Source of the DNA: Spiroplasma endosymbiont of Clivina fossor
GTDB lineage: Bacteria; Bacillota_I; Bacilli_A; Mycoplasmatales; Nriv7
DNA length: 64,000 nucleotides
Direction of reading: 5' to 3'
Assembly (NCBI RefSeq): GCF_964031115.1
Contig: NZ_OZ035006.1
Span: forward strand, 1,489,605-1,553,604
Numbering within the stretch: the stretch's first letter is position 1; each line of letters starts with the position of its first letter. The notes beneath the pieces are model-generated. The model saw only the letters and a program-made list of their open reading frames with translations. It was not told the origin of the DNA and did not search any database. Of this stretch, positions 1,843 through 60,809 are shown in pieces. The position numbers were made by a program, and so were the translations under genes.

Positions 1843-1914
1843 GATAATTAAATTGTAGTTACTTTTCTTTCAAAATTAATCAAATATTTTTCCACCTAAC
1901 AAAACTTTACGCGT
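1843..1914 (-). repeat. Partial copy of a recurrent terminal block with phage-like end
   Basis: This 70 bp piece matches the last part of the blocks at 13004-13196 and 15417-15609 and ends CCTAACAAAACTTTACGCGT. The same terminal motif closes the plectrovirus fragments at 20897 and 43869. It abuts the MITE on one side and a decayed coding remnant on the other. Confidence 0.6.
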
Positions 1915-2092
1915 TCAAAAAGACAACAAGAAAAAAGAGCAAGAAAAAGCAGATCAAGAAAAAGAAAAAAGCCAACAAAGACAACAATGATTAACTGAAT
2001 AATTACTTAAATTTAATGATGGATTAAAATTATTTCTTGTTGCTAACAAAAAGGATGATAATTTGATTATATTGTGTTAATATTTAACTAAG
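1915..2092 (+). pseudogene. Decayed C-terminal coding remnant, unidentified
   Basis: One frame reads a Gln/Lys/Glu-rich coiled-coil-like stretch (KADQEKEKSQQRQQWLTE), then a TAA, then continues in the same frame (LLKFNDGLKLFLVANKKDD...) to a second TAA at about 2092. The 5-prime side has been replaced by mobile DNA. This looks like the tail of a lost chromosomal gene. I cannot name it. Confidence 0.4.
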
Positions 2093-4000: not shown

Positions 4001-4172
4001 GTAGGTAAATATTTGATTAATTTTGAAAGAAAAGTAACTACAATTTAATTATCGTTTTATTTGAAAAATAAGTAATAAAACAAAATATTTAATATTAACA
4101 AACATAATCTTAATAAAAGGTTATAAAAACTAAGTAAAATGCTTATAAAAACAACATTAAAATAATTTTTTA
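3981..4172 (+). repeat. Terminal block beginning GACGCATAAAGTTTTGTTAG
   Basis: A non-coding block of about 190 bp, also present inverted at 13004-13196 and 15417-15609 and partly at 1843-1914. It starts with the phage-like terminus and ends exactly where an IS1595a end begins. It supplies the last codons and the stop of ribF. Its origin is uncertain: the terminus of a diverged plectrovirus or of an unrecognised IS. Confidence 0.6.
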
Positions 4173-7644: not shown

Positions 7645-8790
7645 TTTTAATTTTGTCGAAAACTCTTGATAAAATAAAAAAAATCATCAACTTGATAATT
7701 TTAAAAGGCTTTTATGTAAAATTACTATTTTTACTTTAACTTTTTTATACATTAAAATATAATACCGCTGTTTGTTGGTTTGGAGTTAAACCCTTATGTT
7801 GGTATTTTCATTTTCAGAGATTTAAATAATTTTGAATATTAGTAAAACCTAAACCATGATAATGAATTAAGGCTTCTTTAAGACTAGATTGTAATTTACT
7901 GATTTTATTTAAGTTACGATAACTAGCTTCAGGATTAATTGTTGTTTTAGTTACACATAAAGTAGAATTTGTTTGTTTTGCTACTAAAAAATATAATTTT
8001 TGCATATCAGAAGTAATAATTGAATTTTCATTAATTAATTCTTTGTTCATATTTTCAATAACTCATTGTTTTTGTAAACGTTTGGTGTTTGTGGATTTAA
8101 CATAAATATTGTTATTATTATCAATTGCCATTTGAATACAGCATTTAGTATTAGTTGCGAATGGGTCAAGGTGAATTCTTCGTGGATCAGTTTTATATTT
8201 GAAATTTCCTTTATGGATTTCTTTAATAAATGTTTCATCGATTTGGATTTTACCAGATAATTTTTTAAATTTTAATTGGGTATTTTCTAATTGTTTTGAT
8301 TTCATTAATTTTTGACGATTATATCAAGCAGTTTTTAATGTAGTTTTAATAAAACGAGAAATTGTTTTACTAGATTGCCCCAGCAATGAAATTTGAATCA
8401 ATAAATTTCATTGTTCATAATTTAAATGACTTCAATAAATAAAATGATTACGAAAAGCGTCAAAACTTGCACGGCAATTTTTACATAAATATTTTTGTTT
8501 TCCTTCTGAATTATGTCCATTTTTAACGCAATGGTAAGATTCACATTTAGGACATTTAATACCTTGCGCTCTAAATTTTTGATCAATTTCATTTAAACGT
8601 TTTTGTTTTTTTATTAATTCTGCTTGTTGTTTAACTTTTTCATAAAATTCTAAAAATTGATCATCTGTTAAAGTATTTACTAGTTCTTGAATTATTTTTT
8701 CCATAATTATTATCCACCTCTATCATATTAAAAATATACCTAAAATTAAGTATATTCAATAAATATCAAGAGTTTTCGACAAAATTAAAA
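7645..8790 (-). mobile_element. IS1595a, complete copy inside IS5b
   Basis: A 1146 bp element with inverted ends TTTTAATTTTGTCGAAAACT, flanked by the 8 bp duplication ATTATTTT (7637-7644 and 8791-8798). Its transposase gene is intact, making this the best reference copy in the window. Confidence 0.9.
7745..8704 (-). CDS. IS1595-type transposase, intact
   Basis: 319 residues in code 4. An N-terminal coiled segment (MEKIIQELVNTL) is followed by a four-Cys zinc ribbon, CPKC at about residues 45-48 and CKNC at about 71-74. The DDE core begins with KIQIDETFIKEIHKGNF and continues through CCIQMAID. The C-terminus carries HYHGLGFTNIQNYLNLW and ends in FNV. Zinc ribbon plus ISXO2-like DDE core plus an 8 bp duplication fits the IS1595 family; the exact subgroup is not established. 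The ribosome site AGAGGTGG is close upstream. Confidence 0.82.
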
Positions 8791-10509: not shown

Positions 10510-10613
10510 GGTCGCGTTTAGTTTTCTTAGGTATTTTTTAAAAAAGAAAAAATAATCATTTACTATAAATTATTTCAATATTCAAATTAAGTATATATTT
10601 CTTATGTATGATT
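10510..10613 (+). mobile_element. ISLre2-type element, 5-prime end fragment
   Basis: It begins GGTCGCGTTTAGTTTTCTTA and continues with the sequence shared by the right half of the MITE at 1739-1842. It is cut at 10613 by an IS1595a tail. No coding sequence is retained. Confidence 0.7.
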
Positions 10614-10650
10614 TTTTTTATTTTATCAAGAGTTTTCGACAAAATTAAAA
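10614..10650 (+). mobile_element. IS1595a 3-prime tail fragment
   Basis: The terminal sequence ATCAAGAGTTTTCGACAAAA and a few flanking bases of IS1595a, joined directly to an IS256 fragment. Confidence 0.65.
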
Positions 10651-11838
10651 AAATATTTTAAAAACTGATGCGTCATTAGGAAAAATCTTTTTATTCTTAA
10701 TAACTTTTCTTAGTTGACTATTAACAGATTCAATCGCATTAGTTGTGTAAATAATCCTTCTAAATTCTTGAGGATATTCAAGAAAAATTATTAAATTATT
10801 TCAGTTATTTTTTCATGATTTAGTAATTTGTGGATACTTTTTATTTCATTTTTCTGAAAAATGATCTAAAGCAACTAGCGCTATTTCTTCATTAATTGCT
10901 GTATAAATTGATTTTAAATCATTAGCTACAAGTTTGCGATCTTTGTAAGGGACAAATTTTAAACTCTATTACGAATTTGATGAACGATGCATAATTGGTG
11001 CTGTGTTTTTGGGAACACAGCTTCTATTGCATCAGACATTCCAGTTAAATTATCGCTACAAGCAACAAGAATATCTTGTAAGCCACGATTTTTCATTTCC
11101 GTAAGAGAGGGGATTATATTAAGTCAAAATTTGGCTCCCTCATTCTCGCTAATTCACATTCCTAAAATATCTTTTAAACCATCTAAATTAATTCCTAAGG
11201 CAAGATAAACTGCTTTATTTATTATTCGTTTATCTTGCTTTACTTTAACAACAATACAATCAAAATAAACAATCGGATAAATCTTCTCTAAAGGTTTAGT
11301 TTGTCACATTTTAACTTCTTCAATAACATCATCAGTTATTTGACTAATTAAACTTTCTGAAATTTCTGCTCCGTGATAGAATTCTTGCAATTGTGCTTTG
11401 ATATCAGAAATTGTCATTCCTCTTGCATATAAAGAAATTACTTTTTGATCAAAGTTATCAAATCTTCTTTGTCTTTTCGGAATAATTACTGGTTCAAAAG
11501 TACTATTTCGATCTTTTGGTACATCAATTGCGATTGAACCATTTTTAGTAATAATGGTTTTTTGTGTGTTGCCATTTCTTTTATTATGATTCTCATCAGT
11601 TTCAAGATGATCTTTAATTTCCGTATTTAACATTCGTTCAGTTAATTTTTTGGTAAATTCCTGAAAAATAGTATTGCCTTTAAATAAATCTTGTGGATTA
11701 TCAATATTTTCTAAAAAATAATCAACAACTTTATCAATTGCATCAGGTTCTTTTTTTATTTTTTTTTTGTCATTTTCTGTTCTCCTTCGTTTAAGTATAA
11801 TTCAGAATGAATTATCGAGACACAGAATTTTGGACAGG
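10651..11838 (-). pseudogene. IS256-like transposase remnant
   Basis: This covers most of the 406-aa IS256-like transposase on the complement but lacks the last 40 or so codons (cut after VFKIF). It has +2 T in the run next to the ATG, shifting the start codon out of frame, a 2-base insertion near 10966, and an in-frame replacement adding 9 bases near 11105. The left element end (GACAGGCC) is still present at about 11838. It cannot encode a functional protein. Confidence 0.85.
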
Positions 11839-11860
11839 CCCTCCAGCAGCAGCCCCCCCC
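11839..11860. other. GC-rich 20-mer at an IS junction
   Basis: CCCTCCAGCAGCAGCCCCCC-type sequence between the IS256 end and the IS1595a leader, including a run of eight C. It matches neither element nor the AT-rich surroundings. It may be non-templated junction DNA or an assembly artefact. Confidence 0.6.
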
Positions 11861-11898
11861 TCTATCATATTAAAAATATACCTAAAATTAAGTATATT

Positions 11899-12966
11899 AG
11901 ACTTCTTGCAAAATTAATTTAAAATATAATTGAATTGTTGTTTTTAATAAAAAGGTGGAATTTAAATGAAATTTAAAAAAAATAATCAAATAAGTGATAA
12001 AAATTTTTTAAGATTAACTGGTATTAAACATACTACTTTTAATAAAATGCTAGAAATTTTAAAAATAGAAGAATTAAAAAAGAGATTTCGTCGCGGAAGA
12101 ACCAATAAATTATCATTAGAAAATCGTATTTTAATGACTTTAGAATATTGAAGAGAATATAGAACTTATTTTCATATTGCAAAAAGTTATGATATTAGTG
12201 AAAGTAGTTGTTATAGAAATATCAAATGAATTGAAGACACTTTAATAAAACACCCTAATTTTCAACAACTTACTGGTCAAAAATCACTATTAAAAGATTA
12301 TTTCAAAGATAAGACTGTTATAATTGATGTAACTGAAAGCCAAATCCAACGCCCAAAAAAAGACAAAAACAGCACTACTCAGGAAAAAAGAAAAAACACA
12401 CAATAAAAACACAAGTTATAATTGAAAAAGATAGTAAAAAAATTATTAGTTCTGATTTTTCTTATGGTAAAAACCATGACTTTAAAATTTTAAAAGATTC
12501 AAAAATTAAATTTTTACCAGAAACAACTGTTTTAGTGGATTTAGGTTATCAAGGCATACAAAAAATTAATCATAATGTTTTAATTCCTAAAAGAAAATCA
12601 AAGAAAAACCCTTTAAATAAAGAAGAAAAGCAAAATAATGAGCGAATTTCAAAAATGAGAATTGTTATTGAAAATGTTTTTGCTATACTTAAAAAATTTA
12701 AAATTATTAGTGAAAAATATCGAAATCGTAGAAAAAGATTTGCTTTAAGATTTAATTTAATAGCTTCAATTTATAATTTACAACTATTAGTTTAAATATA
12801 TTTGATAATTTAAAATTTCAGTCTTTTTTTATTGTAAATAATAATTTTTATTATGTTTTAATGACAAAATATTTGTAAAAATAATCTAAAAATTATTTTA
12901 ATAACACTTTTATATTTATTTTAAATTTAAAAATTATAATTATCATATTAATTTTGCAAGAAGTCT
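11899..12966 (+). mobile_element. IS5a, complete copy
   Basis: 1068 bp, same ends as the copy at 4845, target duplication ATT (11896-11898 and 12967-12969). The two-frame transposase lies at 11966-12795 with the A_AAA_AAA_G slip site. Confidence 0.9.
11966..12795 (+). CDS. IS5-family transposase (frameshift-fused), IS5a copy
   Basis: ORF A ends at 12406 and the -1 frame ORF B at 12795. The translated segments are identical to those of the copy at 4912-5741, including VIIDVTESQ, DLGYQGI and MRIVIENVFA. Apparently intact. Confidence 0.83.
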
Positions 12967-13003
12967 ATTCAATAAATATCAAGAGTTTTCGACAAAATTA
13001 AAA

Positions 13004-13196
13004 TAAAAAATTATTTTAATTTTGTTTTTATAAGCATTTTACTTAGTTTTTATAACCTTTTATTAAGATTATGTTTGTTAATATTAAATATTTTGTTTTA
13101 TTACTTATTTTTCAAATAAAACGATAATTAAATTGTAGTTACTTTTCTTTCAAAATTAATCAAATATTTTTCCACCTAACAAAACTTTACGCGTCC
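13004..13196 (-). repeat. Terminal block copy with phage-like end
   Basis: Inverted copy of the block at 3981-4172, ending ACAAAACTTTACGCGTCC. It starts exactly at an IS1595a end, as the other two long copies do, and is joined at 13197 to a truncated IS5a. Confidence 0.65.
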
Positions 13197-14900: not shown

Positions 14901-15036
14901 GGCCGCGTTTAGTTTTCTTAGGTATTGCTTTGAAGAAGTAAAACAATCAGCTATATATTATTTAATTACTAAACTAACCCTGCCTTTCTTGTTATTGTCA
15001 TTTTTATTCGTTACCATTTTATCATATTATTGAATT
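14901..15036 (-). mobile_element. ISLre2-type element, 3-prime end fragment
   Basis: It begins GGCCGCGTTTAGTTTTCTTA (one change from the usual end) and continues through the 3-prime flank seen at 18310-18469 in inverse orientation. It is cut by an IS1595a fragment. Confidence 0.7.
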
Positions 15037-15416: not shown

Positions 15417-15609
15417 TAAAAAATTATTTTAATGTTGTTTTTATAAGCATTTTACTTAGTTTTTATAACCTTTTATTAAGATTATGTTTGTTAATATTAA
15501 ATATTTTGTTTTATTACTTATTTTTCAAATAAAACGATAATTAAATTGTAGTTACTTTTCTTTCAAAATTAATCAAATATTTTTCCACCTAACAAAACTT
15601 TACGCGTCC
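15417..15609 (-). repeat. Terminal block copy with phage-like end
   Basis: Same sequence as 13004-13196 apart from a few bases, again starting exactly at an IS1595a end but here at the 3-prime end, and closing ACAAAACTTTACGCGTCC. A 13 bp remainder separates it from IS5a. Confidence 0.65.
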
Positions 15610-17419: not shown

Positions 17420-18469
17420 TTCAACTAGATGAAACATTTTTAGCGACATTAGATCAGAAAGTTAAACAAGACCAAAGAATTCGTTTAGTTACTTTTCATA
17501 CCGGGCATAAAGAAAAAAATTACAAACATGCTCGTAGAGAATTAGAAAACAAACGAGGTCATTTTCTAATGTTAAAAGTTGGTAAACGAATAAATACGAT
17601 GGATTATCGTGATTTATTAATTAAGGAATTACAAAAATATTATGTAAATATTAATTATGACAGAATAATTGTTTGTGGCGATGGTGCTACTTGAATTAGG
17701 GAAATTGCCAATAGTTTTGGTAATGTTAGATATATTTTAGATGGTTATCATGCTATTAAAAAATTAAAACAAACTGCATTTAATATTATTTTTGAAAATC
17801 GCAAAGTAACACTAAATAGTTGAATTAAATTATATAAGGATGGAAATCATCAAGAATTAATCAAAAACATTCGTAATGTTGCTAAAAATGAATTAAATAA
17901 AGATATTAAAACAAATTTACGAAAGGCGAGTAATTATTTCAGTAATAATAAGCAAGGTATTCATCATCAAAATTTAGAATGAAATATCGGCTGTAGCATC
18001 GAAAGTGATGTATCACATTTAGTAAAACAACAATTAGGCTATGGGGCAAAAATATATAATTATAAGAATTTAAATAACCTATTACATTTAAGAATGGCAA
18101 ATTTAAACAAATTAAATGTATTACATCATATTAATGAAAATATTAATTCAGAAATAGAAATCAGAAAAGAAATATATAAAAATTCATTATGAAATAAATA
18201 TAATAATAAAAATGATGATAGTTGAATTAATTATAAAGGTAATGCTGTAACAAATAAATATAATACATTTAAGTAAGTAAAAATATTAGTTAAAATTTAA
18301 TAATAATTAATAATTTTTTATTGTGTAAAAATTCAATAATATGATAAAATAAAAAAGAATAAAAATGACAATAACAAGAAAGGCAGGGTTAGTTTAGTAA
18401 TTAAATAATATAATTAGCTGATTGTTTTACTTCTTCAAAGAGCAATACCTAAGAAAACTAAACGCGACC
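17420..18469 (+). mobile_element. ISLre2-type element, 3-prime part with intact right end
   Basis: It holds the truncated transposase, a 190 bp AT-rich tail and the right end ending CTAAACGCGACC. The plectrovirus sequence begins at once after it at 18470. Confidence 0.8.
17422..18276 (+). pseudogene. ISLre2/UPF0236-type transposase, N-terminally truncated
   Basis: It opens at QLDETFLATLDQKVKQ directly after the IS5a end and stays in frame (code 4) for 284 codons to TAA at 18274. The segments FHTGHKEKNYKHARR, CGDGATWIREIANSFG and ILDGYHAIKKLKQ are typical of the UPF0236 transposases of the ISLre2 family. The N-terminal 120 residues or so, still present in the copy at 32297-35845, are missing, so it is inactive. 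This copy retains the native C-terminus (NAVTNKYNTFK). Confidence 0.82.
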
Positions 18470-18491
18470 CAAACAGTTCTAAGAATTCCAT

Positions 18492-19812
18492 GAGCCTGTC
18501 CAAAATTCTGTGTCTCGATAATTCATTCTGAATTATACTTAAAAGAAGGAGAACAGAAAATGACAAAAAAAATAAAAAAAGAACCTGACGCAATTGATAA
18601 AGTTGTTGATTATTTTTTAGAAAATATTGATAATCCACAAGATTTATTTAAAGGCAATACTATTTTTCAGGAATTTACCAAAAAATTAACTGAACGAATG
18701 TTAAATACGGAAATTAAAGATTATCTTGAAACTGATGAGAATCATAATAAAAGAAATGGCAACACACAAAAAACCATTATTACTAAAAATGGTTCAATCG
18801 CAATTGATGTACCAAGAGATCGAAATAGTACTTTTGAACCAGTAATTATTCCGAAAAGACAAAGAAGATTTGATAACTTTGATCAAAAAGTAATTTCTTT
18901 ATATGCAAGAGGAATGACAATTTCTGATATCAAAGCACAATTGCAAGAATTCTATCACGGAGCAGAAATTTCAGAAAGTTTAATTAGTCAAATAACTGAT
19001 GATGTTATTGAAGAAGTTAAAATGTGACAAACTAAACCTTTAGAGAAGATTTATCCGATTGTTTATTTTGATTGTATTGTTGTTAAAGTAAAGCAAGATA
19101 AACGAATAATAAATAAAGCAGTTTATCTTGCCTTAGGAATTAATTTAGATGGTTTAAAAGATATTTTAGGAATGTGAATTAGTGAGAATGAGGGAGCCAA
19201 ATTTTGACTTAATAATCTTACGGAAATGAAAAATCGTGGGTTACAAGATATTCTTGTTGCTTGTAGTGATAATTTAACTGGGATGTCTGATGCAATAGAA
19301 GCTGTTTTCCCAAAAACACAGCATCAATTATGCATTGTTCATCAAATTCGCAATAGTTTAAAATTTGTTCCTTACAAAGATCGCAAACTTGTAGCTAATG
19401 ATTTAAAATCAATTTATACAGCAATTAATGAAGAAATAGCGTTAATTGCTTTAGATCATTTTTCAGAAAAATGAAATAAAAAGTATCCACAAATTACTAA
19501 ATCATGAAAAAATAACTGAAATAATTTAATAATTTTTCTTGAATATCCTCAGGAATTTAGAAGAATTATTTACACAACTAATGCGATTGAATCTGTTAAT
19601 AGTCAATTAAGAAAAGTCATTAAGAATAAAAAGATTTTTCCTAATGACGCATCAGTTTTTAAAATATTTTATTTAGCATTTCAAAATATGGTTAAGAAAT
19701 GAACGATGCCAATTCAAAATTGGGGTAGTGCAATTTCACATTTAATGATAAAATTTGAGGACAGAGTGAATTTAAGTTAATTACTTAGAGACACAGTTAA
19801 TTGTACAGTCCC
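18492..19812 (+). mobile_element. IS256-like element, complete, in phage DNA
   Basis: 1321 bp, left end GAGCCTGTCCAAAATTCTGT, right end the complement of GGGACTGTACAATTAACTGT, with 8 bp target duplication AATTCCAT (18484-18491 and 19813-19820). Confidence 0.92.
18560..19780 (+). CDS. IS256-family (mutator-type) transposase
   Basis: 406 residues in code 4, normal for the family. The N-terminal region ([19 protein letters not shown]) is preceded by AGAAGGAGA. The DDE core shows [11 protein letters not shown] (first Asp), [12 protein letters not shown] (second Asp), the [15 protein letters not shown] block typical of Transposase_mut, and a C-terminal [15 protein letters not shown] segment. It catalyses cut/copy-type movement producing 8-9 bp duplications. 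An intact reading frame and a perfect duplication suggest recent activity. Confidence 0.92.
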
Positions 19813-20061: not shown

Positions 20062-20388
20062 TTAAACTCCTTTAAAATAGTTATAATTTATATCTTTTTT
20101 GTTGTTTTCTTTTTCGGCAATGAAGAAGCCTAATAATTCTTGGCCTTTAATTAACTTGGTTTCTTGCTCTTGTTGATTAATTGAAATTACTTGATATTTA
20201 CTATCTTTTATTATTCCGATGCAAATTGAATTTTCATATTTTCCTTTATAAACAAATCGCTTTGGAAACCAAATACCGATTTGTTCACTAAATCACGGAA
20301 TTTTTGGGGCTTTAATAAGCATTGCGTTTTGTGTTTCTTTTAAGAGATATTTCTTAGTATTTAAGAAAATGTTTTCAATGTTTTTCAT
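20062..20388 (-). CDS. Plectrovirus early protein, 108 aa (copy 2)
   Basis: A soluble-looking 108-residue protein (MKNIENIFLNTKKYLLKETQ...) with a beta-rich middle and a Lys/Asn-rich tail, almost identical to 43034-43360. It is the first gene after the control region. A nucleic-acid-binding (ssDNA-binding-like) role is possible from its size, charge and position, but I see no diagnostic motif. Confidence 0.7.
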
Positions 20389-20897
20389 AATAAATTACCT
20401 CTCTTATAAATAAACTAAGTTATATTAACTAAGTTGTTAGTTAACTTAGTTTTTTAAACACTTATATATCGCAGATTTAAGTGTTTAACAAACTTTGTTA
20501 CTGAATTTTGTTTTTTAATTAGATAAAGATTTTAATAATTTTAAACTTAGCATACCCCTATATAGAAATTTTTACACTTTAACATCCGCATCCTACCCTT
20601 GGAACTAATTTAATAGCGTGTATATTTTTAGGAGATCCACCCATTCATTTTTTTATTGCAAAACGAAACAAATTGCTATAGTTAATAGGATGTTATCTAT
20701 TAACTGGTAAACTTCTTTTGGTTATGGCGACCACCCACAATTTATCGTGCTTTAATACATACCAACATTATTAATTCACTTGTATTTAATTTTCAAAGAA
20801 CAAATTTTTAACATCTTATAAAATAAAAAGACAATCATTGCTGACTGTCTTAATACTTATTCAAATCTTTTCCCACCTAACAAAACTTTATGCGTCC
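20389..20897 (-). promoter_or_regulatory. Plectrovirus non-coding control region (copy 2)
   Basis: About 500 bp without an ORF. It contains several stem-loops: AACTAAG/CTTAGTT at 20428-20452; AAACACTTA/TAAGTGTTT at 20455-20487; GTTAATAG/CTATTAAC near 20678-20701; and AGACAATCA/TGACTGTCT near 20831-20853, which on the minus strand is followed by a T run and can act as a terminator. It is almost identical to 43361-43869. Likely roles are replication origin, packaging signal and promoter (inference). Confidence 0.6.
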
Positions 20898-27309: not shown

Positions 27310-28279
27310 TTATTTTGCAATAATAAATTTATTTAAAGTTTCAAATGGAGTTTTGTAATTCAAGCTTTTATGTTTTCGTTTGAAATTATAAAATGTGTAC
27401 CACTCATTCAAATGAATTTGTAATTGTTTAACATCAAATTTTATTTCAAAACCACATTTTTTAAACCAAAATAAACTATTATAATTACGGTGAAACCGTT
27501 CAATCTTTCCGTTGCTCTGAGGAGAACGGATTGGTGTGGTTTCATGGATAATTCCATTTTTTGAAAGAAAGGTTGTAAAAGGTCTTTCTTTTACTTTGTA
27601 TGCTTTTTTATTACTTCAATTAGTAGTAGTGAATTCCGGAGCATTATCAGTGCGAATGCGTTTAATTGTTATGCCAAGTTCGCCAAAATCTTTTCATTGC
27701 TCTTTGCATGGCATTAATGGCATTATTGGTTCCTAAACTATCATACACATATCCAAAAGCAATTCTTGTTATTTCGTCAATGAAATCATAAACATATAAT
27801 CTATGCTTAGCAATAGGAAAATTTTTATCAGTAAACACTTTAGCATCCATTTGCAGTAGTCCAATATCTGAAACTTCATAACGCTTAAAATGGCGTTTTG
27901 CTTTTTTCATTTGCGTTTTTATTTCTCCATAGCGTTTGTCTTGTTTAATTCAACGATAAAAAGTATTAATTGATTTGGGGACATTATTTGTATCTATATC
28001 ATGCACATTTTTTTGATGAATATTATGATAAAGCGATAATACACCGCCCGCACCTACAAATTTGTAATCAAAGTAATAATCACAAATTTGTTTTCTGGTT
28101 TCTAATGAAAATTGATATTTAATATTTTTTGGTGTTGTTGATTTGAATTGCAATTCATAAAAGTTGTCTTGATAATAACCATTAATAATTTTTTTAGCTC
28201 AAATATAAAATGTCATTTTACTACCACGAAAATATTTTTTAATCAATTTATTTACAGATATGTTATCTGTATTATTCAT
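27310..28279 (-). pseudogene. Integrase-core (rve) transposase with a one-base frameshift
   Basis: It starts at the ATG complementary to 28277-28279 (MNNTDNISVNKLIKKYF). It has a helix-turn-helix region, then the catalytic motifs QMDAKVFTD, IRTDNAPEF and SPQSNGKIERFHR of the retroviral-integrase-type DDE fold. The frame breaks at an AAAA run near 27690 (RAMKRFW instead of KDFGELGI) and the rest continues in the next frame to NKFIIAK. It resembles IS481/IS3-OrfB-like or phage-borne transposases; the subgroup is unresolved. IS1595a copies lie on both sides. Confidence 0.75.
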
Positions 28280-30073: not shown

Positions 30074-32056
30074 TTATACTATAGTAGTAACTGTATTTGT
30101 TCTTACTGGCCCTTCTCTTTCTGATGAAAAAAATGCTTCACCGTTAAATGTTATTTTATCATTGTTTTTATCTATAGTAATTTCATTGGGTAATAAACTA
30201 TATTTTTGTAAAATTTGCATTATTTCTGTAATTGATAATGTAACTATTTGTTTTTTATTGTTATCGTCAATTATTTTGGCAGTAATATTTCCTGTAATTT
30301 TTTGTTTTAAATTTAATATAACATTAGATGAAATTATTCTTACTGGATAAGTAATTTTTAATTTTTCATTGGGATTAAGTTCAAATTTATCAGCGGGTTC
30401 CTTAAAAATACTTAAAATCATTTCTTGTTCTTGTTTATTTGTGTTTGATAAATCAAATTCATTTGATAATACATTAATGATTTCAGAATTTTTATTATTT
30501 ATATTTGTAAAATCTGTTAATTTCATTTCATCATCAGCATTTATGTTTCAACCATTTAATTTATTTTCTTGTTTTGTTTTAGTTAATCCTGTTGTAATTT
30601 GAAATACTAATTTTGATTTCGAATTATATTCACAAGCAGGTACATTAAATGATCTTATATTTGGAGTTTTATTGATGATTTCTCTATCAGAACATACATT
30701 TTTAGGAACATTAGATCATAAAAATGAATTTTCTTTTTTTGTTATTTCAATATCTGAAAAATTTAAATTATTAGTATCAATATAATTTATTTCCTTAAAT
30801 TTTAAATTAGGGTTTTCATCACGAAACTTAAAAAATACTGCTCTTTTAATTAATTCATTTAAATTAATAATTTTATTTTGTTGATTATTAATTGAATAAT
30901 GTATTTTTATATTATTATTTAAATTATCTTTTATCTTTACTATAGCTGAATTATTTGTTTTATTAATAATTTCTAATTGTGATATATCTAAATCAGGATT
31001 TAAATAATTTAATTCATTTAAAATTGCATTATCAGAATTATCATTAATTTGTCCCAAATTTGAATTTAAATTATACTGACTATATTCATAAACATTTTTA
31101 TCTCATGAGCCAACATATAATTTGTTGTTTAAAACCACACCAGAAGATATAACTTCTCCATTTGTTTTAATAACAATTTTTTGTTGTCCTGTGGCCGGAT
31201 CATATTCATAAACATTGTTATCTGACGAACCAAAATATAGTTTATTATTAAATACTACACCAGAAGACCTTATAATATTATTCGCTGTAATAACGATTTT
31301 TTGTTGTTCTGTTACTGGATCATATTCATAAACATTATGATCATGTGAACCAAAATATATTTTATTATTAAATACTACCCCAGAAGTTTGAACTCGCCCT
31401 TTTGTTCTAATAATAGTTTTTTGTTGTTCTGTTACTGGATCATATTCATAAACATTTTTATCTCATGAGCCAAAATATAAATTATTATTTAAAATAATTC
31501 CTTTAGAAAGAATTTCTCCATTTGTTTTAAAAACAATTTTTTGTTGTTTTGTTGCAGGATTATATTCATAAACATTTTTATCTGACGAACCAAAATATAG
31601 TTTAGTATTAAATACTACACCAGAAGAATCAATTCATCTATTTGTTTTAATAACAGTTTTTTGTTGTCCTGTGGCAGGATTATATTCATAAACATTTTTA
31701 TCTGACGAACCAAAATATAGTTTATTATTAAATACTACACCAGAAGTAATAACTTGTCCATTTGTTTTAATAACAGTTTTTTGTTCTTTGGTTACTGGAT
31801 CATATTCATAAACATTATGATCATGTGAACCAAAATATACTTTATTATTAAATACTACCCCAGAAGATTCAATTTGCTCTTTTGCTGTAATAACAATTTT
31901 TACTCTATTTATATTTTCATTATTGCTTCGTTTTTGTCTTTTATCATTTATATTTTCTAATTGCTCTTGTTTTTGATAAGGATTATTGGCAACGATTCCA
32001 GCCATTCCACCACTTGATATTGTTATTGTACTTAATAAACTAAGTAATTTTTTCAT
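30074..32056 (-). CDS. Secreted protein with seven tandem 40-residue propeller-like repeats
   Basis: A 660-residue protein in code 4, intact. The start follows AAAGGGA by about 10 nt. The N-terminus (MKKLLSLLSTITISSGGMAG, then IVANNPYQ) is a signal peptide of the kind seen on many Spiroplasma surface proteins; there is no lipobox cysteine. Residues about 52-340 form seven tandem repeats of 40 residues with consensus SSGVVFNNKLYFGSSDKNVY followed by EYDPATGQQK. DNA spacing is an exact 120 bp. Seven short beta-rich repeats with YxFGSxDxNVYxYD suggest a seven-bladed PQQ/WD-like beta propeller. Residues 345-660 are Asn/Lys/Ile-rich with no domain I recognise. It could be a surface adhesin or ligand-binding protein; function is not established. 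Confidence 0.85.
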
Positions 32057-33409: not shown

Positions 33410-34730
33410 GGGACTGTACAATTAACTGTGTCTCTAAGTAATTAACTTAAATTCACTCTGTCCTCAAATTTTATCATTAAATGTGAAATTGCACTACCCC
33501 AATTTTGAATTGGCATCGTTCATTTCTTAACCATATTTTGAAATGCTAAATAAAATATTTTAGAAACTGATGCGTCATTAGGAAAAATCTTTTTATTCTT
33601 AATGACTTTTCTTAATTGACTATTAACAGATTCAATCGCATTAGTTGTGTAAATAATTCTTCTAAATTCCTGAGGATATTCAAGAAAAATTATTAAATTA
33701 TTTCAGTTATTTTTTCATGATTTAGTAATTTGTGGATACTTTTTATTTCATTTTTCTGAAAAATGATCTAAAGCAATTAACGCTATTTCTTCATTAATTG
33801 CTGTATAAATTGATTTTAAATCATTAGCTACAAGTTTGCGATCTTTGTAAGGAACAAATTTTAAACTATTGCGAATTTGATGAACAATGCATAATTGATG
33901 CTGTGTTTTTGGGAAAACAGCTTCTATTGCATCAGACATCCCAGTTAAATTATCACTACAAGCAACAAGAATATCTTGTAACCCACGATTTTTCATTTCC
34001 GTAAGATTATTAAGTCAAAATTTGGCTCCCTCATTCTCACTAATTCACATTCCTAAAATATCTTTTAAACCATCTAAATTAATTCCTAAGGCAAGATAAA
34101 CTGCTTTATTTATTATTCGTTTATCTTGCTTTACTTTAACAACAATACAATCAAAATAAACAATCGGATAAATCTTCTCTAAAGGTTTAGTTTGTCACAT
34201 TTTAACTTCTTCAATAACATCATCAGTTATTTGACTAATTAAACTTTCTGAAATTTCTGCTCCGTGATAGAATTCTTGCAATTGTGCTTTGATATCAGAA
34301 ATTGTCATTCCTCTTGCATATAAAGAAATTACTTTTTGATCAAAGTTATCAAATCTTCTTTGTCTTTTTGGAATAATTACTGGTTCAAAAGTACTATTTC
34401 GATCTCTTGGTACATCAATTGCGATTGAACCATTTTTAGTAATAATGGTTTTTTGTGTGTTGCCATTTCTTTTATTATGATTCTCATCAGTTTCAAGATA
34501 ATCTTTAATTTCCGTATTTAACATTCGTTCAGTTAATTTTTTGGTAAATTCCTGAAAAATAGTATTGCCTTTAAATAAATCTTGTGGATTATCAATATTT
34601 TCTAAAAAATAATCAACAACTTTATCAATTGCGTCAGGTTCTTTTTTTATTTTTTTTGTCATTTTCTGTTCTCCTTCTTTTAAGTATAATTCAGAATGAA
34701 TTATCGAGACACAGAATTTTGGACAGGCTC
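33410..34730 (-). mobile_element. IS256-like element, complete, inside IS5b
   Basis: 1321 bp; duplication GATTTGGA at 33402-33409 and 34731-34738. This is the youngest layer of a three-level nest (IS256 in IS5b in ISLre2). Confidence 0.92.
33442..34662 (-). CDS. IS256-family transposase, intact
   Basis: 406 residues, same domains as 18560-19780 ([29 protein letters not shown]). A perfect duplication and open frame suggest recent movement. Confidence 0.9.
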
Positions 34731-35845
34731 GATTTGGATTACGATTTAACTTAATTTCAGGAATATATAATTTTGAATTAAGCTAGTTATAGTTATGTAC
34801 CAAGTCTTATGTATGTTTGTTAGATAAAGAAATTGGCTTATTGCCTAAACAACGCATTTATTTTGATGTCCAATTTAAAGTTTTAAGTCTTTTGGGAGAT
34901 GGTAAACGGTATCGTGATGTTTTAGATGCTCTAAATCATTGTTATATTTCAAAAGCTAGTATTTCAAATATTTTAAATAAATACGATATTGCCGAATATT
35001 TTCAACTAGCAGAAAAAGAAACTAAAACTAGAATTGATGTCAAAAATAAGAATTTATATATTCAACTAGATGAAACATTTTTAGCAACATTAGATAAGAA
35101 AATTAAACAAGACCAAAGAATTCGTTTAGTTACTTTTCATACCGGACATAAAGAAAAAAATTATAAACATGCTCGTAGAGCGTTAGAAAATAAACGAGGT
35201 CATTTTCTAATGTTAAAAGTTGGTAAACGAATAAATACGATGGATTATCGTGATTTATTAATTAAAGAATTGCAAAAACATTATGTAAATATTAATTATT
35301 ACAAAATAATTGTTTGTGGTGATGGTGATACTTGAATTAGAGAAATCGCCAATAGTTTTGGTAATGTTAGATATATTTTAGATGGTTATCATGCTATTAA
35401 AAAATTAAAACAAACTGCATTTAATATTATTTTTGAAAATCGCAAAGTAACATTAAATAGTTGAATTAAATTATATAAGGATGGAAATCATCAAGAATTA
35501 ATCAAAAACATTCGTAATATTGCTAAAAATGAATTAAATAAAGATATTAAAACAAATTTAAGAAAGGCGAGTAATTATTTCAGTAATAATAAGCAAGGTA
35601 TTCATCATCAAAATTTAGAATGAAATATCGGTTGTAGCATTGAAAGTGATGTATCGCATTTAGTAAAACAACAATTAGGATATGGAGCAAAAATATATAA
35701 TCATAAGAATTTAAATAATCTATTACATTTAAGAATGGCAAATTTAAACAAATTAAATGTATTACATTACATTAATGAAAATATTAATTCAGAAATAGAA
35801 ATCAGAAAAGAAATATATAAAAATTCATTATGAAATAAATATAAT

Positions 35846-35921
35846 AGACTTCTTGCAAAATTAATATGATAATTATAATTTTTAAATTTAAAATAAATAT
35901 AAAAGTGTTATTAAAATAATT
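35846..35921 (-). mobile_element. IS5a terminal fragment
   Basis: 76 bp of one IS5a end (3-prime side, minus orientation) left between the ISLre2 remnant and IS256. Non-coding. Confidence 0.8.
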
Positions 35922-37314: not shown

Positions 37315-37776
37315 TTAACCTTCAATTTTTGTTATTAGTTGTGTTCAAGTAGGATTTCTTAATATTGTTACTTTTAGATTAAAGATTTCCTTTTTTTGAA
37401 TATTACCGTTTTCAATTTCTTCATACTTGATATTAAAGTTGAGTTTTGTAAGTTCATCAAGAATATTTTCGTTTTTTGCATGGTAATTATCTATTATGCT
37501 ATGTATTGTCTTTTCGTTAATTGGAGATATTGTATCAATTTTTATTCAGTTTGGCATATTTTTTGGTCATTGTTGTGTATGTATATATAAATCTCATTTT
37601 ATATCAGTTTTAGGTTTTTCTCATCTATTTTTTACTAAGTAAACAAATCCTTTTTTTAAGTTTAATTCGTATGATTCATTCTCAATTTGTAATATTGGTT
37701 CATTTGCTTTTTTAGAACAACCAACTATTGGTAATGTTATTAGTCCTAAAACAGCGGTTATATTTAAAAATTTCAT
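37315..37776 (-). CDS. Lipoprotein sharing a domain with the phage attachment-type protein
   Basis: 153 residues. ATG complementary to 37774-37776 after AAAGGAG. The signal peptide MKFLNITAVLGLITLPIVGC ends in a lipobox (PIVGC), so the mature protein would be anchored by a lipid-modified Cys at residue 20. From about residue 35 (YELNLKKGFVYLVKNRW) to the end (TQLITKIEG) it is nearly identical to residues about 42-165 of the 619-residue phage protein at 37827-39686. The copies differ at a handful of positions (for example WEKPKTD versus WKKPTTD). A longer in-frame start at 37806 has no ribosome site. Role unknown; a receptor-masking or superinfection-exclusion function is conceivable (inference). 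Confidence 0.8.
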
Positions 37777-37826
37777 AAAATTAACTCCTTTATTTTGTTT
37801 TTTCAATATATATATATATATATATA

Positions 37827-39686
37827 TTATACGAAAATCCTTAAAATCATTAGAAAAATGGCAAAGCCGATTAAAAACTGAAAGGTATAGTAAAAGGCGG
37901 GTACCGTTTTAAAAATTGGAAAAATGGCAGTTGAAAAGTTAACTGTTGCTTTTGCAATGATTGCTAATGGTCGTAAAATCGTAATGATTTGTGAAGCAGT
38001 GAGCATTCAGTTTATCATTTTGATGCCAGCATTTTGAATGGCACAGCCAATGTCATTAAAAGTTGGTATTCATCGTCCAGAATATTTGCAATTTGCTGGC
38101 GGAATTAAATCATCTCATTCTGAGTTGGTTGAGCCATCAGGTATAAACGCCGTGGAATTTAAGACATTAAAGTCATAAATTTTAAAATTGTAGTTAGAGA
38201 TATTGCCTTTATGATAAAGCGGAAAAGTTAAGGTAAAAATATTAATACCATAGCGAATATCAATGTCGGTGTTAAGATAATTAATATTATTAGCAGTGTT
38301 ACTGGCTGACAATTTAATTAGTTTATTGTCATAAGATTTAAGAACATTAAAATCAATTTGATAAATGCTATTGTTGTTTTTAATGGCATTATAATTCTCT
38401 TGGTGCGATTTTTTATCAAAAGTAAAGAAATAACTTCTTAGTAATAATTCTGAGTTTCCTATAATATTTACTAAGTATTTTTTGGGATAAAAGGTAATTA
38501 ATGAACGGTAAAAGAAACCGATTTGAATAAAATAATCCTTCTTATAGTTTTCTACACCTTTAAAATCAATTTCTGTATGAGTGTTTTCATCCATATCAAA
38601 AGTAGCATAAAATAAACTTGCAAAGAAATTGCCAAGAATTTCGTAGATTTCGTCAAAAACATTTTTGTAATCGCTGTTGTTAATACTAGGTATGTTGTTT
38701 TTAAAATAAAGGTAAATGTCATTTTTTAATTCAGGGTCGTATCTCAAAAAACTAAATTTAACATTAAGATAATTTAAGGTACCAAAAAGGTACTTAATTA
38801 GGTAATAATCGTTAGTATTTGCCGTATCATATTTTCATATTTCACTTTCACCATGTAATAATTGTAAATAGTTATTACCTGCGATTAAGGTTTTATTAAA
38901 AGCTTTAATTTTTAAAACATTCTTATTAATTTCATTCTCACTACTAGAAGTCTTATGATGAAAATAGCTTTCATCTTTAAAACCATGGTTTTTAATGATA
39001 AATTCTTTGTAATAACCTTTTTCTAAGGTGTTAATGAAATTAAATATTGGCGTTCAATAGAGATAAGAGTAATTAAATTTATCAAAATCACCACGATGAA
39101 TCATTAAATAATCAAGATTATCAACAACATCGTTATAGTTATGGTTGCCATCAAATTTGGTGGTTTTTTCTGGTAAATCAATATCGGTTGATGGTCTTAT
39201 TTGACCTTCAATTTTTGTTATTAGTTGTGTTCAAGTAGGATTTCTTAATATTGTTACTTTTAGATTAAAGATTTCCTTTTTTTGAATATTACCGTTTTCA
39301 ATTTCTTCATACTTGATATTAAAGTTGAGTTTTGTAAGTTCATCAAGAATATTTTCGTTTATTGCATGGTAATTATCTATTATGCTATGTATTGTCTTTT
39401 CGTTAATTGGAGATATTTTATCAATTTTTATTCAGTTTGGCATATTTATTGGTCATTGTTGTGCATGTATATATAAATCTCATTTTATATCAGTAGTAGG
39501 TTTTTTTCATCTATTTTTTACTAAGTAAACAAATCCTTTTTTTAAGTTTAATTCATAAGTTTCTTTGCTTTCTCTTTTATTTCTAATTAGTGAATTTGCT
39601 GTTGTTTTGTCATTGTTAATGTTTTGGGGAATGGTAAAAATGTTATTTAAACTAATAACTATCACGGTAAATATTTTCATAAACAT
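37827..39686 (-). CDS. Plectrovirus attachment-type minor coat protein, 619 aa
   Basis: 619 residues in code 4, starting at 39686 after GAAGGA. It has an N-terminal signal-like helix (MKIFTVIVISLNNIFTI), a long polar extracellular-type region rich in Tyr/Asn, and a C-terminal membrane anchor (FYYTFQFLIGFAIFLMILRI). Size, topology and position at the end of the structural cluster match the large adsorption/assembly protein of filamentous phages (pIII-like); SpV1 relatives have a protein of this size. The N-terminal 120 residues are duplicated in the lipoprotein next door. A TA dinucleotide run lies just after the stop (37807-37826). Confidence 0.75.
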
Positions 39687-39951: not shown

Positions 39952-40449
39952 TTAATGAGTTTGTTTGATTTCATTTTTCAAGGCTCTTTTTGTTTTAATT
40001 TTCTGAATAATCAAGCGGATTAATTTTTCAAATTTAAGTGAAAAATATATTGCTCCGCCTCATCAAAAAACAAATATTCCTGCCAGCATAATACCACTAT
40101 TGAACTTACCAAAGAAATCAACCATCTGTTTATTCATAAAATCATTAAATTCGTCATTTGTTCCGGTTATTCATTTAGTATCGATTACTGTTAATGCACA
40201 AATTAATAAGCTTATAAAGATGAAAATGATACTTAATACTATTTTTAACCACTGATTTTTAAAAGAATTTTTAATTCTTAATTTTAATGGCATTTTTTCT
40301 TTTGAATTATCTTTTTTAAATAATTTTGCTAAAAGTTTTTTCATTTTTATGTATTTAAGAGTATTAACACTATTTTCTAATATTACATTAACAATTTTTA
40401 ATTTGTCATTTTCTATTTCTAATTCTTGTTTTTTAGTTCATTTTTCCAT
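39952..40449 (-). CDS. Plectrovirus membrane protein, 165 aa
   Basis: 165 residues. A charged N-terminus (MEKWTKKQELEIENDKLKIV, coiled-coil-like) is followed by two membrane helices (IVLSIIFIFISLLICALTVI and SGIMLAGIFVFWWGGAIYF) and a basic C-terminus. It lies between the 82 aa coat-like gene and the attachment-type gene. Probably a virion or assembly protein; no family recognised. Confidence 0.65.
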
Positions 40450-40453
40450 TTTT

Positions 40454-40702
40454 TTACCTACCTTTAATCACAATAAATAAAGCAATAAGTACACAAGTTA
40501 CACCAAGAATGGTAAAAATTGGGTGTTGCGAAAATGTTCGTGCCATTGGTTTAAAAAGTTCTAAAATTGTTAAATTGCTAGTAATAAACTTTTGAAAATT
40601 CGCAAGGCCTTCGCTAATATAGTTTGTTAAAGTTTCAAAATGACTACCAGCTAATAATCCAAGAACGGTTATTAAGATAAAAATAATAATTAGTTTAAAC
40701 AT
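40454..40702 (-). CDS. Plectrovirus small coat-like membrane protein, 82 aa
   Basis: 82 residues: an N-terminal helix (MFKLIIIFILITVLGLLAG), an amphipathic middle, and a second helix (HPIFTILGVTCVLIALFIVI) ending in KGR. The layout is typical of minor or major coat proteins of filamentous phages. It starts 3 nt after the stop of the 94 aa gene upstream. Confidence 0.7.
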   Translation of the reverse strand: MFKLIIIFILITVLGLLAGSHFETLTNYISEGLANFQKFITSNLTILELFKPMARTFSQHPIFTILGVTCVLIALFIVIKGR

Positions 40703-40704
40703 TG

Positions 40705-40989
40705 TTAGTTACCTTGTTTTGTTTTTATTGGTTTTATTTGTTTTTTAGCTTTTCCTCACGCACTTAAACGCCCCTTATTTTTAACCGCATATTGGCGTTG
40801 TCTTTCTAAATTAACTTGTTGACTACCAAAACCGAGAATAATTGCCATAAGAAATTCTACAGCAAGCGTTAAGAATAGAGGAAATATTAATTGAATATTC
40901 GTTCCCGGCACCTCTAAACTTCAAATTAAATCAAAAACTTTATAAAGCATTTGGGCGAGAAAGTCGGCCATTTTTGCGAGATTTGCCAT
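40705..40989 (-). CDS. Plectrovirus small membrane protein, 94 aa
   Basis: 94 residues (MANLAKMADFLAQMLYKVFD...) with one long membrane segment (LIFPLFLTLAVEFLMAIILG) and a basic tail (RLSAWGKAKKQIKPIKTKQ). The basic C-terminus could contact the viral DNA, as in filamentous coat proteins (inference). It starts 4 nt downstream of the ATPase stop. Confidence 0.7.
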
Positions 40990-40992
40990 TTT

Positions 40993-41979
40993 TTATTGTT
41001 CCTTTTCTTTCATTTTTCTTAAAAATTTGCTAAATTTATCCATTTTTAAGTATTCTAAGTCTTCTAAATCAATTGCCGTATCAGTATAGTATTTATCTTC
41101 ATAATCAGGATTTACTTTTGAATTTAAGTAATCTCTTAAAAATGCTAGGTAAAAAGAATTGTAAGTGTTAAGTATTGGTAAAGGAATTTTTAGTTTAAAA
41201 AAATAAATATCAAGTTCAGGAATATCACGGTATTTAATACGGCGACCTTTTTTGCTATTTTTAGCATCAATTAAGGTGTTTCGTCAGCGTTCATATTCTT
41301 CAATGCTCGTAAAGGTGCCATAGACGACTTTCAAGTAGGGGCGAAAAATATTAACGGGTTTTTTGCGAATTCCCACAATTACATTATTGGCAATATCACG
41401 AACTTTAACTCAAATATGTTTATCTCTTTGACCGCTAGCGAGAACAATATGACCAAAATGTCGTGCTAGAGCGAAATACTCTTGGATACCGGTTTCTTCG
41501 TTTTTGGTATTATTTTTTTCTCAATCAGTTCCTTCTAAGAATAAATTGGTTTCATCTCACAAAAGTAAGGTTTTATCTGGTAATACCGGATAATCAAAGT
41601 CTAATAATCCCATATGTCCTAAACTTAATTTTTGGGTTTCTAGTAATGGAAAGGTTGAGGCGATGTGATATTTCTTCTTTTTTAGTAATTTTGATGCGTA
41701 TACTAGAAAAGCAGTTTTGCCAGTCCCTAATGAACCAATCACAATATTTAATGGTGAGTTTTTTAAGAAATTAATAACTTTGTTAATTTGTGTTAAATTA
41801 CCGATTTTAAAAAGGAAAATTAAAATGCAACCTGCTAAAAATAAATAGCTCACAATGTTTTTAAAATAACCGTTGTAAATATATCAAATTGCTCCTCAAT
41901 GTCATAAAATTAAAAATGAGGTGCGATTCAATTCAATAAAATGGTTATTTTTTTCTATTATTCATTTGCAAAATTTCAT
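40993..41979 (-). CDS. Zot-like (pI-type) phage assembly ATPase
   Basis: 328 residues. Two membrane segments lie near the N-terminus (about residues 18-36 and 43-58). Then Walker A GSLGTGKTA at about 82-90, a Walker B-like LLLWDETNLF, and an ALARHFGHIVLASGQ segment typical of Zot/pI ATPases of filamentous phages. In that family the protein powers virion extrusion across the membrane. The charged C-terminus ends KMKEKEQ. It is the best-supported phage assignment here. Confidence 0.85.
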
Positions 41980-42003
41980 CTTGCACCTCACTTTATTTTT
42001 TTG

Positions 42004-42249
42004 TTAGCGTACGGCTCCAAGTAATTTTTCAAACATTTTAAAGCAAATAAAGAATATTGCCAAAATAAATGGGAAAATGAAGATTCAGTAGTCAGCAAAG
42101 AAATTACCGACTTGTGGCATATTAACAGCAATAATTTCTCACATTTTAGTAAACGCTGTTATAATTGCGTTTCACAATTTAGTCATCGCGTCACTAGCTG
42201 TTATTTTTTCTACTGTTGCAGGTGCATCGGCCAAGAAAGTTCCAAACAT
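42004..42249 (-). CDS. Probable major coat protein of the plectrovirus
   Basis: 81 residues: an amphipathic N-terminal part (MFGTFLADAPATVEKITASD), a Trp-containing middle, a membrane helix (YWIFIFPFILAIFFICF) and a short basic end (KLLGAVR). The ribosome site is exceptionally strong (AAAGGGGGTGAT, 6 nt before ATG), as expected for the most abundant virion protein. It resembles the SpV1 coat protein B as I know it; an alignment would settle it. Confidence 0.75.
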
Positions 42250-42268
42250 ATAATCACCCCCTTTCTTT

Positions 42269-42403
42269 TTAAAACATTCATCATTTATATTCAAAGTTTT
42301 TCTTAAATTTGTTAAAACCACGATTAACCTTAACACGATTGTATTTTTTCCTAATTAATTTTGAATTTCTTTGGGAATGCATCACAATGTAACTCTGCGA
42401 CAT
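42269..42403 (-). CDS. Small basic plectrovirus protein, 44 aa
   Basis: 44 residues, strongly basic (SKLIRKKYNRVKVNRGFNKF), between the 76 aa gene and the coat gene. It may bind DNA or serve as a packaging/coat accessory protein; there is no family evidence. Confidence 0.5.
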
Positions 42404-43033: not shown

Positions 43034-43360
43034 TTAAACTCCTTTAAAATAGTTATAATTTATATCTTTTTTGTTGTTTTCTTTTTCGGCAATGAAAAAA
43101 CCTAATAATTCTTGTCCCTTAATTAATTTGGTTTCTTTTTCTTTTTGATTAATCGAAATTACTTGATATTTACTATCTTTTATTATTCCAATGCAAATTG
43201 AATTTTCGTATTTTCCTTTATAAACAAATCGCTTTGAAAACCAAATACCGATTTGTTCATTAAATCACGGAATTTTTGGTGCTTTAATAAGCATTGCGTT
43301 TTGAGTTTCTTTTAAAAGATATTTTTTAGTATTTAAGAAAATGTTTTCAATGTTTTTCAT
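43034..43360 (-). CDS. Plectrovirus early protein, 108 aa (copy 1)
   Basis: First gene after the control region; 108 residues (KNIENIFLNTKKYLL ... YNYFKGV). Nearly identical to 20062-20388. The position and small beta-rich build would suit a single-stranded-DNA-binding protein, but this is inference. Confidence 0.7.
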
Positions 43361-43869: not shown

Positions 43870-44053
43870 TATAGTTAGTGAAAATTTAATAAAATTAATA
43901 ATTTTTATTGTGCAAAAATTCAATAATATGATAAAATGAAAACGAATAAAAATGACAATAACAAGAAAGGTAGGGTTAGTTTAGTAATTAAATAATATAA
44001 TTAGCTGATTGTTTTACTTCTTCAAAGCAATACCTAAGAAAACTAAACGCGAC
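43870..44053 (+). mobile_element. ISLre2-type element, 3-prime end remnant
   Basis: Starts directly at the phage terminus and ends CTAAACGCGACC. It contains the 3-prime flank (GACAATAACAAGAAAGG...) without transposase codons. Confidence 0.75.
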
Positions 44054-44091
44054 CCCCAAAAAATATTTTCTGTGTGTCTTTGTCTAGTTTT

Positions 44092-52239: not shown

Positions 52240-52596
52240 AAAATGATTACGAAAAGCGTCAAAACTTGCACGGCAATTTTTACATAAATATTTTTGTTTT
52301 CCTTCTGAATTATGTCCATTTTTAACGCAATGGTAAGATTCACATTTAGGGCATTTAATACCTTGCGCTCTAAATTTTTGATCAATTTCATTTAACCGTT
52401 TTTGTTTTTGTTTTTTTATTAATTCTGCTTGTTGTTTGACTTTTTCATAAAATTCTAAAAATTGATCATCTGTTAAAGTATTTACTAGTTCTTGAATTAT
52501 TTTTTTCCATAATTATTATCCACCTCTATCATATTAAAAATATACCTAAAATTAAGTATATTCAATAAATATCAAGAGTTTTCGACAAAATTAAAA
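52240..52596 (-). mobile_element. IS1595a 5-prime fragment
   Basis: Zinc-ribbon codons, start region and end of IS1595a. An extra T next to the start and an extra 6 bases in a T-rich run distinguish it. The transposase is truncated. Confidence 0.78.
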
Positions 52597-52752
52597 ATTT
52601 TTTATTGTGTAAAAATTCAATAATATGATAAAATGGTAATGAATAAAAATGACAATAACAAGAAAGGTATGGTTAGTTTAGTAATTAAATAATATAATTA
52701 GCTGATTGTTTTGCTTCTTCAAAGCAATACCTAAGAAAACTAAACGCGACCC
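52597..52752 (+). mobile_element. ISLre2-type element, 3-prime end remnant
   Basis: Matches 18310-18469 and ends CTAAACGCGACC, 17 bp before the glyS -35 box. Confidence 0.75.
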
Positions 52753-60367: not shown

Positions 60368-60705
60368 ATTAATGAAATCAAAACAATTAGAAAATACCCA
60401 ATTAAAATTTAAAAAATTATCTGGTAAAATCCAAATCGATGAAACATTTATTAAAGAAATCCATAAAGGAAATTTCAAATATAAAACTGATCCACGAAGA
60501 ATTCACCTTGACCCATTCGCAACTAATACTAAATGCTGTATTCAAATGGCAATTGATAATAATAACAATATTTATGTTAAATCCACAAACACCAAACGTT
60601 TACAAAAACAATGAGTTATTGAAAATATGAACAAAGAATTAATTAACGAAAATTCAATTATTACTTCCGATATGCAAAAATTATATTTTTTAGTAGCAAA
60701 ACAAC

Positions 60706-60809
60706 AAGGACGCATAAAGTTTTGTTAGGTATTGCTTTGAAGAAGTAAAACAATCAGCTAATTATATTATTTAATTACTAAACTAACCCTGCCTTTCTTG
60801 TTATTGTCA
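60706..60809. repeat. Hybrid junction: phage terminus fused to ISLre2 3-prime end
   Basis: It begins GGACGCATAAAGTTTTGTTA (the phage end) and continues at AGGTATTGCTTTGAAGAAG as the ISLre2 3-prime flank, exactly in register with GGTCGCGTTTAGTTTTCTTA AGGTATTG at 1588. It ends at IS256. Confidence 0.75.

Follow-up and report, generated by a model that had tools for sequence, protein, structure and literature searches.

A Spiroplasma plectrovirus whose integrated genome resembles an 11-kb transposon inserting upstream of promoters

Analysis of a 64,000-nucleotide window (bases 1489605-1553604 of the 2.05-Mb single-contig chromosome of a Spiroplasma endosymbiont of Clivina fossor) and of related copies elsewhere very probably reveals a temperate Spiroplasma plectrovirus that is integrated in the form of a roughly 11-kb transposon, with its own transposase, 9-bp target duplications and insertion upstream of promoters. 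This reading draws on features legible in the DNA itself, namely paired ends, a target duplication, a target rule, gene linkage and identical copies. The window is crowded with phage sequence and with remnants of IS256, IS1595 and IS5-like elements, and the first-pass annotation had interpreted its ends as those of two separate elements, a plectrovirus and an ISLre2 insertion sequence.

Two 22-bp tips, GGACGCATAAAGTTTTGTTAGG and GGTCGCGTTTAGTTTTCTTAGG, are identical at 17 of 22 positions, and each has seven matches in the window (three or fewer mismatches) where shuffles gave an expectation of 0, bearing out the earlier remark that the two end sequences agree at most positions. Across the chromosome, the first tip has 121 matches with two mismatches allowed and the second 130 with one. 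We catalogued 254 ends, from which strongly diverged ends may be missing, and classed them by the sequence inside the tip as A1 (65), RE (77), A2 (54), LE (54) or odd (4, two of them hybrids of the kind found at 60708). The inverted repeats are imperfect (left, GGACGC(A/G)TAAAGTTTTGTTAGGT; right, GGTCGCGTTTAGTTTTCTTAGGT) and span about 22-24 bp, inside the range of the Mutator-like (p-MULT) superfamily, for which repeats of 18-39 bp and duplications of 8-9 bp are described (PMC3942029).

The bases outside all 254 ends were then compared, and pairs with a flank overlap of exactly k bases were counted against shuffles. At k = 9, 47 pairs were obtained versus 1, 1 and 1 in the shuffles, with shorter and longer overlaps at or near background. 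Sixteen of the 9-bp matches join face-to-face ends no more than 20 kb apart, and for six of these the uninterrupted target was located elsewhere, hits corresponding to the element's own end having been excluded. Fourteen of the 16 local pairs combine A1 with RE at 8.4-14.2 kb, all with perfect 9-bp duplications and five with a spacing of 11,006 or 11,010 bp; duplications of 8-12 bp around full phage copies, which had been proposed as a check, are thus present. Because A1 and RE pair with target duplications, we regard them as the two ends of one element of about 11 kb, and the supposed ISLre2 end is the second end of the phage. Three 11,010-bp copies at three sites are identical base for base, and their spread must therefore be recent; the majority of ends in the genome are without an intact partner. 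The other two local pairs combine LE with A2 at a spacing of 304-305 bp, again with a 9-bp duplication, so that these two classes are the ends of one 304-bp element. In addition, three 512-bp elements bear A1 and A2 ends, both L-type; two of them (chromosome 740851-741362 and 1082951-1083462) have no 9-bp duplication, and the third (1828164-1828675) is not among the matched pairs.

The gene content of the 11-kb element was read from a full copy at 1240188-1251197, and a second full copy has the same ORFs. From the L repeat inward lie a 108-aa ORF4-like protein, small proteins, a 109-aa coat-like protein, the 331-aa ORF2 ATPase, a 106-aa ORF5-like protein, proteins of 82 and 127 aa, the 732-aa ORF1 and a 172-aa lipoprotein-like protein, followed by a 705-aa beta-propeller protein on the other strand, a 460-aa transposase whose gene stops 194 bp short of the R end, and the R repeat. 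Blastp against SkV1CR23x (Vespertiliovirus, Plectroviridae, SpV1 type, NC_009987; from Spiroplasma kunkelii) identified homologues of ORF2 (33%, E 1e-39), ORF1 (25%, E 2e-12), coat/ORF7 (36%, E 3e-8), ORF4 (34%, E 1e-11) and ORF5 (25%, E 1e-6), and the phage genes were also compared by tblastn to 10 Spiroplasma phage records. The core homologues of Plectroviridae (Vespertiliovirus-like), ORF1, ORF2 ATPase and coat, are present in conserved order. As in SkV1, ORF2, ORF5, (ORF9) and ORF1 follow one another, a transposase gene comes after ORF1, and no HUH Rep was found. However, the SkV1 transposase is of the unrelated rve integrase-core type while that of the element is UPF0236, and SkV1 measures 7.9 kb against 11 kb and has no beta-propeller accessory gene. 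No rve-type transposase or rolling-circle Rep was found in the proteins tested from the element, unlike SVTS2, which has a rolling-circle Rep, and no conjugation or type IV secretion genes were recognised among the main ORFs of the 11-kb copy. We read the arrangement as a putative replacement of the plectrovirus integration module, with a UPF0236 transposase downstream of ORF1 where SkV1 has the rve type. DNA searches with two window pieces against phage records returned no match, and an IMG/VR search returned no relative of ORF2. The beta-propeller gene of the full copies (L180:7365-9482 (-)), which opposes the phage genes, encodes BamB/PQQ-like repeats, and its product is possibly a cell-surface or superinfection factor.

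The transposase matched UPF0236 (PF06782) in Pfam at 1e-24. It passed the NCBIfam model for Mbov_0401 of mycoplasma ICEs (NF046004; 284.3 bits, cut-off 162) and failed that for ISLre2 (NF033529; 104.8 bits, cut-off 200), and in a tree of 20 sequences it grouped with mollicute members (support 95/90 and 97/92, on long branches). "ISLre2" is therefore only a loose name for it. Among 296 genomes sampled across the class, only members of the same order gave matches above the Mbov_0401 cut-off. The motifs LDETF, GDGDTW and SIES, picked by eye, contain candidate residues that would fit a DDE triad; a PDB sequence search gave chance matches only, and an AlphaFold model built without an alignment had a pLDDT of 34. 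We infer that the Mbov_0401 family corresponds to p-MULT 5 of PMC3942029. As reported for mycoplasma ICEs, the transposase gene lies beside one inverted repeat. The last gene (17549-18886) of Spiroplasma poulsonii phage MaM-2019a (OL689227) encodes a transposase of the same NCBIfam family, but this 19-kb phage encodes capsid, portal and terminase and belongs to an unrelated type; the repeats of our element were not seen at the ends of its record.

It is very improbable that two separate elements are present, an integrase-less plectrovirus and an ISLre2-type insertion sequence, with the phage moved in trans through its IS-like ends. The ends are indeed similar, and the 304-bp satellites show that short elements with such ends exist; however, 9-bp duplications match L to R ends over a span of 11 kb, and this span includes the transposase gene. 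This gene is also linked to ORF2 in five genomes, where, of the 128 transposase copies listed, 64 lie 4-13 kb downstream of a same-strand ORF2; random placement would give about 12, and the wrong side gave 11. A stand-alone insertion sequence would have an inward-facing tip near the 5' side of its transposase gene, and no such tip accompanies any of the 21 longest transposase copies of the genome; nor did the stretches of sequence retrieved contain a short, R-bounded, transposase-only element flanked by a 9-bp duplication of its own. Both end types thus belong to one element. The proposal that the phage entered by an ISLre2 transposase survives insofar as an ISLre2-like transposase on similar ends is indicated by the 9-bp duplications, the oriented insertion upstream of promoters and the PF06782 gene inside the element; what is not supported is the idea that it was borrowed from an insertion sequence.

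After removal of similar flanks, a TATAAT-like -10 box was found exactly 39 bp outside the R ends in 24 of 66 flanks, against a mean of 2.0 at other positions. The same box lies at +39 in 13 of 45 satellite R-type ends and in 1 of 58 and 4 of 48 L-type ends. The first base of the -35 box, at offset 16, is T in 82% of R-type flanks, a signal absent at L-type ends. The phage thus tends to sit in a fixed orientation, its R end toward a sigmaA-type promoter whose -35 box is about 16 bp away. The window R ends at 1588, 44054 and 52751 have promoter-like boxes at this distance or within 1-2 bp of it. Separately, a promoter-like TTGTGT...TAAAAT lies about 130 bp inside the R end and reads outward to the flanking gene (window 52590-52640, and the same place in other R ends); this outward site is itself an insertion target (chromosome 1048677, 1145803, 34264).

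The target rule recalls TnGBS/ISLre2 (p-MULT 3), in which the right repeat points at a sigmaA promoter and stands 16 bp from the -35 box (PMC3942029), and which share with our element the Mutator-like superfamily (PF06782 match), short imperfect inverted repeats and 8-9 bp duplications. Those are, however, ICEs or short insertion sequences, whereas the present element is a phage by its genes and its enzyme fails the ISLre2 cut-off. For IS256 and mycoplasma ICEs no flanking motif is described, the latter reportedly inserting at random (PMC3942029), in contrast to the oriented promoter targeting seen here in an element without visible conjugation genes. Given the promoter rule and the NCBIfam scores, the phage therefore targets like TnGBS/ISLre2 with an enzyme of the mycoplasma-ICE branch, extending promoter-targeted insertion to a filamentous-type phage and to that branch of transposases.

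The 304-bp LE-A2 satellite, of which about 19 copies of 303-305 bp were found, resembles the phage ends at 90% over 41 bp and 83% over about 70 bp. It shares the promoter rule with the phage, and two copies show the 9-bp duplication; in most copies the flanks do not match. Several phage R ends carry a satellite R-type end about 163 bp inward, with one verified insertion (34264-34567). Most simply, the satellite is a non-autonomous passenger of the phage transposase. Assignment of the LE class as an ISLre2 left end was tried and rejected, LE being the R-type end of this satellite.

The features of the window are collected in Table 1. At 60708 an L-type tip continues in register with TATTGCTTTGAAGAAG..., which is interior sequence of the other end, and 60706-60707 are flank. 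The junction described by the first-pass annotation, a phage terminus continuing in register into ISLre2 flank, is therefore real and begins at 60708, but its "ISLre2 end" label was mistaken. Nor do phage pieces abut ISLre2 ends at the two other places named: the R end at 18469/18470 adjoins an IS256-family transposase gene, and the L end at 43869/43870 adjoins 163 bp of the R-end interior of another phage copy.

Table 1. Phage, satellite and insertion-sequence features of the window (window positions)
Feature	Position	Strand	Details
Right inverted repeat	1588-1609	+	TATAAT 39 bp outside, reading toward gene 804-1544 (-)
Satellite ends	1821-1916	-	R-type 1821-1842, L-type 1895-1916
Satellite L-type end	3980-4001	+	
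Satellite R-type and L-type ends	10510-13196	+	R-type 10510-10531, L-type 13175-13196, IS sequence between
Right inverted repeat	14901-14922	+	One mismatch
Satellite L-type end	15588-15609	-	
C-terminal transposase fragment with its right inverted repeat	17569-18469	+	Fragment 17569-18276, repeat 18448-18469
Phage left-end fragment	20062-20897	-	108-aa gene 20062-20388, left repeat 20876-20897
Orphan beta-propeller gene	30074-32056	-	660 aa, homologous to the 705-aa gene of full copies
Transposase fragment	34817-35872	+	351 aa, UPF0236 / Mbov_0401 family
Truncated phage copy	37315-43847	-	Cut beside an IS256 copy
Lipoprotein-like gene of truncated copy	37315-37806	-	
ORF1 of truncated copy	37827-39686	-	
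Gene of truncated copy	39952-40494	-	
Gene of truncated copy	40705-40989	-	
ORF2 ATPase gene of truncated copy	40993-41991	-	
Coat-like gene of truncated copy	42004-42336	-	
108-aa gene of truncated copy	43034-43360	-	
Left inverted repeat (A1) of truncated phage copy	43848-43869	-	
R-end fragment of another phage copy	43870-44054	+	163 bp interior, tip 44033-44054; upstream of an enolase-like gene (named by eye), promoter-like boxes outside the tip
Right inverted repeat	52730-52751	-	TTGACA 17 bp and TATACT 40 bp outside; upstream of a glycyl-tRNA-synthetase-like gene (named by eye)
IS1595-type transposase gene fragment	60372-60707	+	Outer flank of the hybrid end; same protein as 7745-8704
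Hybrid end	60708-60809	+	From sequence: L-type 22-bp tip in register with the first ~80 bp of R-end interior, then cut by an IS5-like element

Only two of the 254 ends are such hybrids, the one at window 60708 (chromosome 1550312) and one at chromosome 940931. The 60708 hybrid is probably a recombination scar, in which a crossover or conversion within the shared tip joined an L-type tip to R-end interior. Most of the non-local matches in the set of 47 join ends at distant loci, which suggests recombination between copies that swapped their flanks, with duplicated loci contributing as well. Both the hybrid tips and these flank matches would suit a scheme in which the phage copies arrived through homologous recombination with the ends of resident elements, as the first-pass annotation had also entertained, and not by transposition. 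We consider this even less probable than two separate elements: homologous recombination does not yield perfect 9-bp duplications at unrelated targets together with a fixed promoter distance, and it is contradicted for the 14 paired copies, though it could explain the hybrids and some unpaired ends. The view that the ends have recombined accordingly holds, but as a process secondary to transposition.

Least probable of all is integration by another enzyme, either host XerCD, which is known to serve the inovirus XacF1 (PMC5666396), or an rve-type transposase such as SkV1 encodes and to which a gene at window 27310-28279 is related, since the targets are many and unrelated, carry 9-bp duplications and offer no single dif-like site, the full copies read carry the UPF0236 transposase with no rve gene noted among their ORFs, and the promoter rule agrees with the UPF0236 superfamily. 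The many unrelated targets with 9-bp duplications are the ground on which both XerCD and homology-driven entry are rejected; another enzyme is largely contradicted for the full copies, while ORF2 lineages of 59-64% identity may differ. For the present lineage, the way in which a plectrovirus enters Spiroplasma chromosomes can thus be read from sequence as its own transposase, 9-bp duplications and promoter-upstream targeting, and the integration gene of plectroviruses appears swapped at an equivalent position in the gene order, rve type in SkV1 and Mutator-like here. No description of this combination was found in the open-access literature searched.

Four other genomes of the genus contain 35 to 102 ORF2 copies each. 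Among 20 stretches from these relatives, picked for transposase-ORF2 linkage, L-R duplications of 9 bp were found in five and of 8 bp in three. In one relative (G002:C1 ~170943-193298; L219, L220), two identical 11,175-bp phage copies stand head to tail around the spacer GAAAA, a sequence also found as the five bases immediately past the outer L end. In p-MULT transposons the ends of the circular intermediate are separated by 6-10 flanking bases (PMC3942029), against 5 bp here. The tandem pair is what would be expected as a remnant of a circle junction with a flank-derived spacer, and unequal recombination or an assembly effect is also possible.

In the transposon-phage proposed here, the phage-encoded UPF0236/Mbov_0401-type transposase would bind both ends, make a circle in which they are joined by a few flanking bases, and insert it at sites upstream of promoters. 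This circle may also serve as the viral replicative form, particles would be made by the phage, and the short satellites with the same ends would be moved in trans. Many copies have since decayed, nested or recombined, leaving remnants such as those in the window, the 60708 hybrid among them. More speculatively, and with the balance of probability somewhat against it, a Rep-less filamentous phage might rely on one Mutator-like transposase for everything, from the circle or replicative form to integration and steering to host-tolerated sites upstream of promoters, so that lysogeny would amount to transposition, with dozens of copies and satellites per genome.

Two further observations concern other phage sequences in the chromosome. 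A second ORF2 group of 59-64% identity occurs at chromosome 296915, 304987, 1709264 and 1895682, with counterparts in relatives, and probably represents another plectrovirus lineage. At window 27310-28279 (-), two overlapping ORFs were found that may be left over from an SpV1-type phage or its transposase, the first of them matching phrog_8463, the family of SkV1-type phage transposases.
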